NCBI GenBank assembly: GCA_913061235.1
Contig: CAJXTB010000002.1
Coordinates: 310,001-374,000 of the forward strand
Direction: 5' to 3'
Source: an uncultured Pseudomonadota bacterium
Lineage (GTDB): Bacteria > Myxococcota_A > UBA796 > GCA-2862545
Length of the DNA: 64,000 bases
This document shows, in pieces, positions 28,249-31,855 of the stretch (its first letter is position 1; each line of letters starts with the position of its first letter). The notes under the pieces were generated by a model that saw only the letters and a list, made by a program, of their open reading frames with translations, did not search any database and was not told the origin of the DNA. The position numbers and the translations under genes were made by a program.

Positions 28249-28722
28249 ATGCAGCGAAACCCTGTTACTCCTAAGGGCTACATTGCCCTTCAGGCTGAAC
28301 TAAAGCGTCAGAAGAGCGTCGTCCGAATCGGCATCGTTCGGGATATCGAAGAAGCTCGCGCTCACGGCGATATCAGCGAAAATGCGGAATTCGAAGACGC
28401 CAAAGAGCGCCAGTCGATGTGTGAAGGTCGAATTGCCTTGCTCGAGAACCAGGTCGCAGCCGCCGAGGTCATCGACCCGTCGAAGATGAAGCAGCAGGAC
28501 CGCATCGTTTTTGGTGCCACTGTGGACCTTGAGAACGAGGCTGGTGACGCCCGCACGTACCAGATCATTGGCGAGACCGAGTTCGACATCGACAACGGCA
28601 AGATCAGCTGGAAGTCCCCGCTCGCACAGGCCCTTATTGGCAAGAACGATGGCGATGAGGTCGAAGTACCTGCGCCCGGAGGTCGGCAGGTCTGGGAGGT
28701 TGTTGGGGTTCGCTACATCTGA
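28249..28722 (+). CDS. greA: Transcription elongation factor GreA
   Basis: Rescues backtracked RNA polymerase by stimulating transcript cleavage. The 157 residues match the family. The coiled-coil tip carries 'EEARAHGDISENAEFEDAK', with the two acidic catalytic residues. The C-terminal FKBP-like domain has 'ISWKSPLAQALIGKNDGDEV'. The start 'MQRNPVTPKGYIALQAEL' is typical. It begins the operon; the next gene, a RecG-like paralogue, starts 14 bases after the stop with its own GGGAG. Confidence 0.96.
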   Translation: MQRNPVTPKGYIALQAELKRQKSVVRIGIVRDIEEARAHGDISENAEFEDAKERQSMCEGRIALLENQVAAAEVIDPSKMKQQDRIVFGATVDLENEAGDARTYQIIGETEFDIDNGKISWKSPLAQALIGKNDGDEVEVPAPGGRQVWEVVGVRYI

Positions 28723-28736
28723 GTGCGGGAGTTGCC

Positions 28737-31481
28737 ATGAGCAAGGATGCCGAGGGCGCCCAAGAGGTGCCTGAGATCCGCGCGGTCGCTCCAGCGGACG
28801 CCGATAAGCCCGCCGAAGAGGCGAGCAGTGAAGCTGATGTCGTTCCTGCGGACGTCCAGCCAGTACCAGTGGTAGTGGCAAAGAGGGCTCCGCAGCGGAG
28901 ACTACGACTCTATGAGGTAGAACGCGCGGTCTCGCCGCTGCGTCGCCTGTGTAGCTATGCGGCCCGCAGGCCGGATGACGTCCGATATATGGAAGCGACG
29001 GGGCTGCGCTGGGTCGACAAGTTGCTCACCCACCCGCTGCCAGACTCAGTTGCGCTCGACGCCGCCGAGCTTGGTCGCCAGCTTAGCGGCATCGATACTA
29101 CCGATGCAGACGAGCGAATCACTCGCATTGGTGAGCTGAATGCGCTGCTTGCTCGTATTGACGCCATGCTTGGACTTCCGCTCGACCGGTTGAAGTTTCG
29201 CCGGGCCTCCAAGCGCATTTTCCCGCGCAAACAGGTCGAACTTCCTCCGCCAGCACCACCGGCGGCCAAGGTCGAAGCAGCGGTCATTGACGACTCGGAG
29301 GATCTCTTTCTTGAGTCGGATGAGCCGCGGAGTGCCGCTCCCAAGCGTGACCATAGCTACCGTGTTGCGCATCCACCCCGGGAAACGAAGTCGGATGAAC
29401 CTTCGCTACCGAGTGGGCCTTGGTGGCTAGGAGAAGGCATCGGTAGCGTCACTCTCGACAAGCGCGGCTTCCCACCCGCTTGGGTCGAGTCGTTGGCCGG
29501 GGCAGACATTCGCACGTCAACAGACATCCTTCGCCTGCAGCCTTCGGGGTACGAAACCGTACGTCCGGTTCATGGCGCAGGAATGGATGTCCCGGTGGGA
29601 CGTGTCGCACTTGGCGGTCGCATCCGTCAGCGTTTCACATCGATTTCCCCAGATGGGTCTCGTCGCACGCGTGCCATCATCAAGGGGGCTGGCACTACCC
29701 AGCTAAAGTGGGACAATGAGCTGCCTTTCGGCCTTCTCAATCCCCTCAAGCCTGGCACCCGAGTCGTGGCCATTGGGGAACATTCACCGTCGGAAGAGGG
29801 GCCCCAGGTCCTGACCAGCGTAGAGCTGACAGCAGGCCTCACTCAGAAGCTTGCGGAGCTCCCGAAATACGACCTTGATGAAGTCGATGACCGAGTCGTT
29901 CGCGGTTCGTTCCGCATGGTTCGTGCGGACCTCGATGAACTACGTGACCCGCTTCCGGAAGCAGTGTGCAAGAAGCATCGTCTAGTCTCGGCATCAGAGG
30001 CCTACGAAGCGATTCACGGTGCGTCGAGTCAGCGGCGTGCTGGCTGGAAGCGTCTTGCTTTCGAAGAGGGCGTGTACGCGCAGTTGGGTCTTGCCTTAGG
30101 CGAGAGCAGCAAGAAGACAGCGCGCCGTGGAATTGCGCACCCGATACTGCACAGCCTTGCCACACGTCTCACTACGTGGCGGGATGTGAACGTAGATGAC
30201 GACCACCTCAATGCCTTTGAGGTCATCAAGCGTGACCTTCGCTCCAACCGGCCCATGCTTCGTGTATTGGCGGGGCGCCCTGGAGATGACCGCGACCGCG
30301 TCGCTCTGCTGACGGCGGTAACCGTTGCCGAATCCAAGGCGCAGGTGCTCTGGCTGATGCCTGAACCCGTCATGGCTGAAGCGCTGTTCACGTTGTTTGA
30401 ACCTATGCTTCGCGAACTGGGACTCGTGTCTCGTCTACTGGAGGACGCTCCCAGTCGTCCGGTTCGGGATGCCCTGCGTCGTGGCGAAGTTCACATCGTC
30501 TTCGGAACGCTGGAGTTGGCAAAAGCAGACCTTCAGATGCGTCGGCTTGGACTGGTCATTGCGCAAGAGTCTGTACCCGGAGAGACTGAGCGTGATGCGC
30601 TCGTCTCCGAAGGCACGGCGAGTCCAGATGTACTGATCGTTCCTACTCGAGCGATTGGAGCCGGGCATCTGCTCGGTCCGTACGCAGAGCACGCGATTAG
30701 CTGGATCAAGCCTGCCCGTTGGCCGCGGTTCCACACCATGTTGGTCCCAGCGTCGAAGCGCAATGCCGCCTACCAAGAGGTACTCGAGAGTATTCAGGCC
30801 GGAGCCCAGGCGATTATTGCCCTTCCAATGGGGAAGTCGGGCGACTTGCTGGAGCCGGAAGAGGCGGTTCGTGTTCGGACCACTCTAGAGACCCATCTGC
30901 CGGATGCTCGTATTCAGCTGTTCCACGGTGCGTTGTCGCGCGAAGAGCGCAATCGTCGGTACGAAGACTTCCAGCGGCGTCGGTTCGAGGTGCTTCTCGC
31001 AACCCATGCCGTAGAGTTTGGCGCAGACACGCCGGGTGCTACCGAGCTGATTGTGGAACAAGCCGACCGGATGCCACGCGAGCGCTTGAGCCGACTCATG
31101 CATCGCTTGGTTCATGTAGATAAACCCACAGTTCGCTTGATTCACGGTGACGACCCGGACCCTGCGGGTATGGAAGTCCTCCAGAAACTCAAGCGCGGTC
31201 GCATCGACGATGCACTGACTCCAGAGCCGTTTGAGACGAGTGAGCCCAAACTCATGTGGCTGGAGCCGAGTCGAGATGTCGACCTTCTGTTGGCTGCGCG
31301 GACCGTAGCGCTCGACACACTGAGTAAGGACCCAACACTTCAGCGCGGCAACGTGTCGGACATTGCGCGTGCAATGGCTCTGTGGTGGCCAGGTCTGTTC
31401 GACGCAGAGTGCCCTGTGGCTGTTGGCAAGTCGGACGCTGGCCCCAATCGTCGGCGTCGGCGTCGTCGCCGTCGCCGGTGA
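28737..31481 (+). CDS. RecG-like pseudohelicase (all ATPase motifs lost)
   Basis: A 914-residue protein whose layout follows RecG: acidic/Pro-rich N-terminus (1-60), helical region (60-165), linker, wedge/OB domain (about 235-365), then two helicase-like domains (about 490-820). Key motifs are replaced at aligned positions. RecG GDVGSGKT becomes 'GRPGDDRDR' (513-521), DEQH becomes 'AQES' (609-612), TATPIPR becomes 'VPTRAIG' (635-641), and QLRGRVGR becomes 'RLMHRLVH'. Structural strands such as 'VLLATHAVEFGADTPGATE' are kept. The frame is intact, so it is not a decayed gene. The C-terminus is ten consecutive Arg written with mixed codons. It probably binds branched DNA or RNA without unwinding; this is inference. 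Confidence 0.85.
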   Translation: MSKDAEGAQEVPEIRAVAPADADKPAEEASSEADVVPADVQPVPVVVAKRAPQRRLRLYEVERAVSPLRRLCSYAARRPDDVRYMEATGLRWVDKLLTHPLPDSVALDAAELGRQLSGIDTTDADERITRIGELNALLARIDAMLGLPLDRLKFRRASKRIFPRKQVELPPPAPPAAKVEAAVIDDSEDLFLESDEPRSAAPKRDHSYRVAHPPRETKSDEPSLPSGPWWLGEGIGSVTLDKRGFPPAWVESLAGADIRTSTDILRLQPSGYETVRPVHGAGMDVPVGRVALGGRIRQRFTSISPDGSRRTRAIIKGAGTTQLKWDNELPFGLLNPLKPGTRVVAIGEHSPSEEGPQVLTSVELTAGLTQKLAELPKYDLDEVDDRVVRGSFRMVRADLDELRDPLPEAVCKKHRLVSASEAYEAIHGASSQRRAGWKRLAFEEGVYAQLGLALGESSKKTARRGIAHPILHSLATRLTTWRDVNVDDDHLNAFEVIKRDLRSNRPMLRVLAGRPGDDRDRVALLTAVTVAESKAQVLWLMPEPVMAEALFTLFEPMLRELGLVSRLLEDAPSRPVRDALRRGEVHIVFGTLELAKADLQMRRLGLVIAQESVPGETERDALVSEGTASPDVLIVPTRAIGAGHLLGPYAEHAISWIKPARWPRFHTMLVPASKRNAAYQEVLESIQAGAQAIIALPMGKSGDLLEPEEAVRVRTTLETHLPDARIQLFHGALSREERNRRYEDFQRRRFEVLLATHAVEFGADTPGATELIVEQADRMPRERLSRLMHRLVHVDKPTVRLIHGDDPDPAGMEVLQKLKRGRIDDALTPEPFETSEPKLMWLEPSRDVDLLLAARTVALDTLSKDPTLQRGNVSDIARAMALWWPGLFDAECPVAVGKSDAGPNRRRRRRRRRR

Positions 31482-31855
31482 GACTTGTTGCGGAACGACC
31501 CTGCGTGGCGTCCCAGTGGGAGTCCGTTGGGCACCGACTGCGGGACGCTGACCGCTGGGTCCAGTGGTTGCCTGGCCTGCGCTCCGTCACGAAGGTGGAC
31601 GCATCGATCTGGATGACGTTTTCGGATGCTCAGGCCTCGCGATTTCGCGTGGAGTTCCAGCACAGCGAGCACGCATTCAAACTCCAGATGGTGGAGGGTA
31701 GCGTGCGGAGCTTGGAGGCGAGCTTGCGATGGAAAGCCGACCGCCTACGGCTCATCATCGACCTGGATTTGAACAGTCCGCTTCCAGGAGTGCTTGCGCG
31801 AGAGCTCGAAGAGGTCTACCCGGCGCGCTTACTCGCGGCGTTGCTCTCGGAGTAG
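31478..31855 (+). CDS. SRPBCC/START-like small protein
   Basis: A 125-residue protein starting at GTG that overlaps the pseudohelicase stop by 4 bases (GTGA), so translation is coupled. The pattern 'RWVQWLPGLRSVTKVD', several beta strands, and a final amphipathic helix after 'LDLNSPLPGVLARELEE' resemble SRPBCC (polyketide-cyclase/START-like) ligand-binding proteins. The C-terminal 40 bases overlap the end of the convergent hydrolase gene. Assignment to SRPBCC is by pattern only. No catalytic residue can be named. Confidence 0.65.
   Translation: MRLVAERPCVASQWESVGHRLRDADRWVQWLPGLRSVTKVDASIWMTFSDAQASRFRVEFQHSEHAFKLQMVEGSVRSLEASLRWKADRLRLIIDLDLNSPLPGVLARELEEVYPARLLAALLSE

Follow-up and report, generated by a model that had tools for sequence, protein, structure and literature searches.

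The purpose of RecG is debated, and has been sought in the remodelling of forks, Holliday junctions or R-loops, or in limiting over-replication. The window, that is, the whole stretch of 64,000 nucleotides that we analysed, carries a RecG-like gene in which most of the helicase motifs can no longer be recognized, and thus raises the question of what such a protein is and whether it is kept for a function other than catalysis. As the earlier note had read from the letters, the 914-codon frame is intact and encodes the RecG wedge and both helicase-like domains, and profile, PDB and Foldseek matches agree on this point. In profile searches, the protein reached 163 bits against TIGR00643, compared to a curated cut-off of 659 bits, and residues about 244–804 matched the NCBIfam RecG models with E-values from 2e-60 to 1e-47. 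The best match among solved structures was T. maritima RecG (1gm5, PDB E-value 9e-41). An AlphaFold2 model, computed with 12 relatives as input (pTM 0.64), showed an N-terminal helical bundle, an OB-like wedge and two RecA-like domains, and a Foldseek search with this model returned 1gm5 as the best hit by E-value (1.4e-30), at a low global TM-score of 0.31–0.37. The homology thus covers the wedge and helicase-like domains 1 and 2 (HD1 and HD2) across the full length, though the score stays below the curated cut-off. A misalignment with Mfd or another helicase, which the earlier note would have suspected if a canonical RecG were lacking, is ruled out: the canonical RecG is indeed absent, yet the wedge is matched, the Mfd models cover the motor part alone, and Mfd is separately present in the genome. 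Judged from its sequence, the window gene is a divergent RecG by descent that lacks the catalytic hallmarks of this enzyme. The features of the locus are collected in the table. A short frame at 31382–31855 (+) begins within the 3' end of recG and runs on downstream; it has a weak NF047583 match (E 0.013), and its real start probably lies after the recG stop.

Table. Features of the greA-recG locus, in window positions
Feature	Position	Strand	Remark
greA	28249..28722	+	14 bp upstream of the RecG frame; ancestral recG neighbour
Predicted RecG pseudohelicase, the genome's sole RecG	28737..31481	+	Single open frame, 914 aa; RecG profile matches
N-terminal helical bundle, residues 55–150	28899..29186	+	AlphaFold2 helices 58–145
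Wedge domain with OB-like beta barrel, residues 245–460	29469..30116	+	Asp at the position of E. coli F97
Helicase-like domain 1, residues 461–660	30117..30716	+	Profile and structure matches, AlphaFold2
Former motif I (Walker A)	30273..30299	+	Reads GRPGDDRDR; canonical GDVGSGKT replaced by GRPGDDRD
Former motif II (Walker B)	30558..30587	+	Reads IAQESVPGET; canonical DEQH replaced by QESV
Former motif III	30633..30665	+	Reads LIVPTRAIGAG; canonical TATPIPR replaced by PTRAIGA
Helicase-like domain 2, residues 661–800	30717..31136	+	Pfam Helicase_C 1.1e-7, AlphaFold2
Motif V, partly retained	30996..31040	+	Reads LATHAVEFGADTPGA
Former motif VI	31089..31121	+	Reads SRLMHRLVHVD; one of three Arg retained
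Trp884	31386..31388	+	Aligns with E. coli W683, part of the RecG focus-localisation element
Ten-arginine C-terminal tail	31449..31478	+	Basic run in all complete C-termini of the order

The gene had initially been taken for a paralogue, and a canonical recG was to be sought elsewhere in the genome. Our profile search found no second or canonical RecG, neither in the own genome nor in any genome of the family or order; the sole stronger TIGR00643 match of the own genome is Mfd, which has intact motifs (L001). All 48 order genomes with a match, distributed over six families, carry one such RecG gene each, usually plus Mfd. Moreover, wherever the contig of an order locus reaches far enough, recG is immediately preceded by greA. 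The latter gene also adjoins the intact-motif RecG of other members of the class (G052, G053, G054, G056) as well as a motif-less RecG in genome G038; outside the class, the pair was seen in 4 of 20 loci. Given that no other RecG exists and that the greA-recG locus is ancestral, the window gene is the in-place orthologue and the sole RecG, an assignment on which position and tree agree, and the term paralogue has to be dropped. The proximity of greA had also been read as a hint at transcription-replication conflict. Since the pair is common to the intact-motif RecGs of sister orders, and therefore predates the loss of catalysis, the greA link says nothing about a new role. In each of the 19 genomes tested, PriA and RuvB occurred once and scored over the curated cut-off; these bacteria thus have other enzymes that act on forks and junctions.

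According to the earlier note, every helicase motif had been destroyed. This holds for motifs I, II and III, but the window protein retains R790 of motif VI, the motif II glutamate E611, and G762, D764 and P766 of motif V. The GKT of motif I and the DExH of motif II are missing, the arginines corresponding to R433 of motif III and R587 of motif VI are lost, with one of the three motif VI arginines still aligned, and the TRG translocation motif (RGPGE...GTRQTG) is deleted, its glutamine being lost order-wide. In E. coli numbering, equivalents of D397 and R433 occur in none of the order members, and T303 in none of f2–f6 and in one member of f1, where f1 denotes the family of the window and f2–f6 the other five families of the order. 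Of 107 positions that are near-invariant in 24 canonical RecGs, 45 are lost in f2–f6, including T303, D397, R433, D558, R584, R587 and Q640. These alignments document the loss of the catalytic residues across the order, and we predict that the window protein does not use ATP to unwind forks or Holliday junctions. A still active ATPase with unusual motifs is hardly credible. The atypical motifs are conserved in f2–f6, which would be expected of an altered active site, but the Walker B Asp, the GKT Thr, the motif III Arg, the last motif VI Arg and the TRG glutamine have been lost jointly, and we know of no case in which the conserved f2–f6 replacements serve as catalytic substitutes. A nucleotide-gated switch, in which ATP is bound but not hydrolysed and the bound nucleotide sets the conformation, would fit most f2–f6 members, in which GxxGxGK persists (23 of 27 have the Lys) and DE is replaced by an EE or EQ pair; we nevertheless regard it as very improbable, as the P-loop lysine is gone from the window protein (GRPGDDRD) and from about half of its family. 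In some members of this family (L038, L040 and L052, from G001, G003 and G015), the P-loop is wholly erased, reading for example GSTDAGVDD or APSETQQMQ.

When did the motor disappear? In the RecG tree, the order (f1–f6) is monophyletic with a support of 100. Its sister, likewise with a support of 100, is f7, represented by G038 from another order of the class; next to this clade stand f8 and f9, whose RecGs are intact. The own branch of the window protein is long (1.04). The RecG of G038, which has no catalytic motifs either, is encoded by a frame of 1559 aa adjoining greA (L078, 6467–11143, minus strand). It does not end in an Arg tail, and the genome, which is 94% complete, gave no separate Mfd match at E 1e-20. 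The distribution is best explained by RecG having become a pseudohelicase in an ancestor of the whole order, perhaps already in one shared with f7, and being passed on vertically. A single loss of catalysis before the split of f7 is the simplest reading of the tree, but an independent loss in f7 is possible too, this family being represented by one long branch whose substitutions differ. Throughout the phylum survey, RecG was canonical, with scores of up to 702 bits, or else could not be detected. The latter applies to families f13, f15, f17, f21, f23, f28 and others, whose genomes, at least 90% complete, gave Mfd alone. RecG has thus been lost outright repeatedly in this phylum, and its motor has proved dispensable on more than one occasion. 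A metagenome-assembled contig titled Klebsiella pneumoniae (L100) carries the RecG of the order, at the same locus as G017; its label is clearly wrong.

The repeated absence of RecG from families such as f13, f15, f17 and f23 would be compatible with slow decay, a scenario in which RecG is dispensable, catalysis is lost first and the remainder drifts towards loss. The acceleration of the motor in f1 points in the same direction: relative to Mfd, the motor divergence in this family is 2.03 and 2.21, about 40% above canonical RecG (1.46/1.53). The f1 wedge and N-terminal bundle, however, diverge no faster than in canonical RecG, and the f2–f6 motors, at 1.43/1.36, are as slow as those of the active enzyme. 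Not one of the 48 order genomes with a match has an internal stop in the gene. Using simple pairwise NG86 estimates for unsaturated f1 and f2 pairs, we obtained dN/dS values of 0.08–0.22 for the whole gene and 0.02–0.15 for the motor domains, the latter comprising 0.02 in the f1 pair G003/G015 and 0.04–0.15 in the f2 pairs. In f2–f6, the lost residues have been exchanged for a different, equally conserved set. Order-wide replacements include, in E. coli numbers, T326 to D (91%), H422 to D (96%), Q577 to R (98%) and V557 to P (91%), and R464, R499, R675 and Y679 (window numbering) are conserved across the order as well; residues 543, 631, 748, 749 and 783 of the window protein are also among the order-specific ones. 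These substitution patterns demonstrate, for the clade and not for the window branch alone, that purifying selection keeps the frame and fold of a putatively non-catalytic protein. Together with the universal Arg tail described below, they make slow decay very improbable, and at the level of the order the dN/dS values largely refute it. The gene is thus probably a pseudohelicase, being of helicase descent, lacking the catalytic residues and, clade-wide, retaining its frame under selection. The earlier suggestion of selection for a non-enzymatic role is well supported for the clade by the intact frames, the low dN/dS and the new residues fixed at lost sites, and the proposed check of orthologues for frameshifts and relaxed selection gave the same answer, its dN/dS values coming from f1 and f2 pairs and not from the window gene itself.

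The protein ends in the ten arginines already pointed out in the earlier note. All 43 order members whose C-terminus is complete end, or very nearly end, in a run of basic residues, and 41 of these have at least seven Arg or Lys among the last ten residues; at the same loci, this criterion is matched by four other frames among about 1,900–1,980 of at least 150 aa. Every intact-motif RecG examined lacks such a tail, as does the RecG of G038. The tail codons are mixed (CGN, AGR and AAR), with exchange of Arg and Lys, which argues that selection acts at the protein level and against an artefact of repetitive DNA. That such tails are a general habit of the genome is unsupported: a DNA pattern search of the own genome gave 22 matches compared to 16 in a reversed control, and by eye, two matches besides recG consist of seven Arg followed by a stop, neither of which terminates an open frame of at least 60 aa. 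According to the alignments, the clade that lost catalysis is also the one that acquired the poly-Arg C-terminus. Its occurrence in all 43 complete members supports a functional tail, which might add nucleic-acid binding. Arg tails bind both DNA and RNA, and the gene could encode a transcription-coupled partner that, jointly with GreA, binds to RNA polymerase or R-loops, fork processing having been abandoned; greA is only 14 bp away and Mfd is the nearest other homologue. We consider this unlikely, as the greA-recG pairing was in place before catalysis was lost and is common to intact-motif RecGs, and profile searches of the window protein found no RNA polymerase-interacting domain of the Mfd type. 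Upstream of the tail, the C-terminal Trp is present in all 17 f1 sequences that reach it, and Trp or Phe stands there in 19 of 24 f2–f6 sequences. In E. coli RecG, the corresponding W683 helps to form replication foci (PMC4027168).

Contacts besides the active site have also changed. The wedge aromatic that stacks on and faces the fork (E. coli F97) is replaced, by Asp in the window protein. The arginines of the pocket for the SSB tail (SSB-Ct), described for RecG in PMC10164576 (E. coli R467, R474 and R614), are not conserved in the order. R474 and R614 vary in sister RecGs with intact motifs too, so the pocket is no strict criterion here. Taken together, the loss of F97 and the unconserved pocket argue against the canonical modes of fork opening and SSB docking, and a scaffold tethered to SSB via the known pocket was rejected because the pocket is not conserved. 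These losses, the faster f1 motor and the long window branch count against a scaffold role. We still consider it probable that RecG of this order is a selected pseudohelicase, kept as an ATP-independent nucleic-acid scaffold. More tentatively, and with somewhat less than even confidence, we propose that its motor has been replaced by an ATP-independent, Arg-tailed reader of DNA (forks, junctions) or of R-loops. It is equally tentative that, with the tail gained alongside the loss of catalysis, fork rescue in these bacteria would combine a passive RecG scaffold with RuvAB, PriA and Mfd. In such a mechanism, the protein would bind nucleic acid without ATP, its body being formed by the wedge and the N-terminal bundle; the retained C-terminal Trp element could localise it to replication sites, and the Arg tail may add tight binding to the phosphate backbone. 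Branched or stalled DNA would then be marked or stabilised for PriA, RuvAB and Mfd, with no remodelling by RecG itself. Fork binding by the window protein is, in this scheme, an inference. A lineage that keeps RecG under strong selection without its motor separates the binding role from the motor role, and the order supplies natural separation-of-function variants of RecG over six families.

How does this protein relate to known systems? With RecG of E. coli and T. maritima (1gm5), it shares the fold, the domain order of N-terminal bundle, wedge, HD1, HD2 and C-terminal region, and the C-terminal Trp element, and within the class its locus marks it as an orthologue; it differs in lacking the catalytic residues, the TRG glutamine, wedge F97 and a conserved SSB-Ct pocket, and in having gained the poly-Arg tail. 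Mfd, the second nearest homologue, contains a RecG-like motor module, whereas the window protein matches no Mfd-specific domain and coexists with a separate, intact-motif Mfd. In the searchable literature we found no RecG pseudohelicase, the sole comparable fork-rescue case being PriA of Deinococcus. As described in PMC4504706, Deinococcus radiodurans PriA has no ATPase, yet binds fork DNA and DnaB; it is likewise an SF2 helicase of fork rescue whose Walker A and B motifs disappeared throughout a clade while its gene was retained. PriA belongs to another helicase family, and its retained binding to DNA and DnaB contrasts with that of the RecG version, which is predicted from sequence; the poly-Arg tail is a feature of the RecG version, no mention of one having been found for PriA. 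By analogy, we propose that the window protein may work like the D. radiodurans PriA pseudohelicase.
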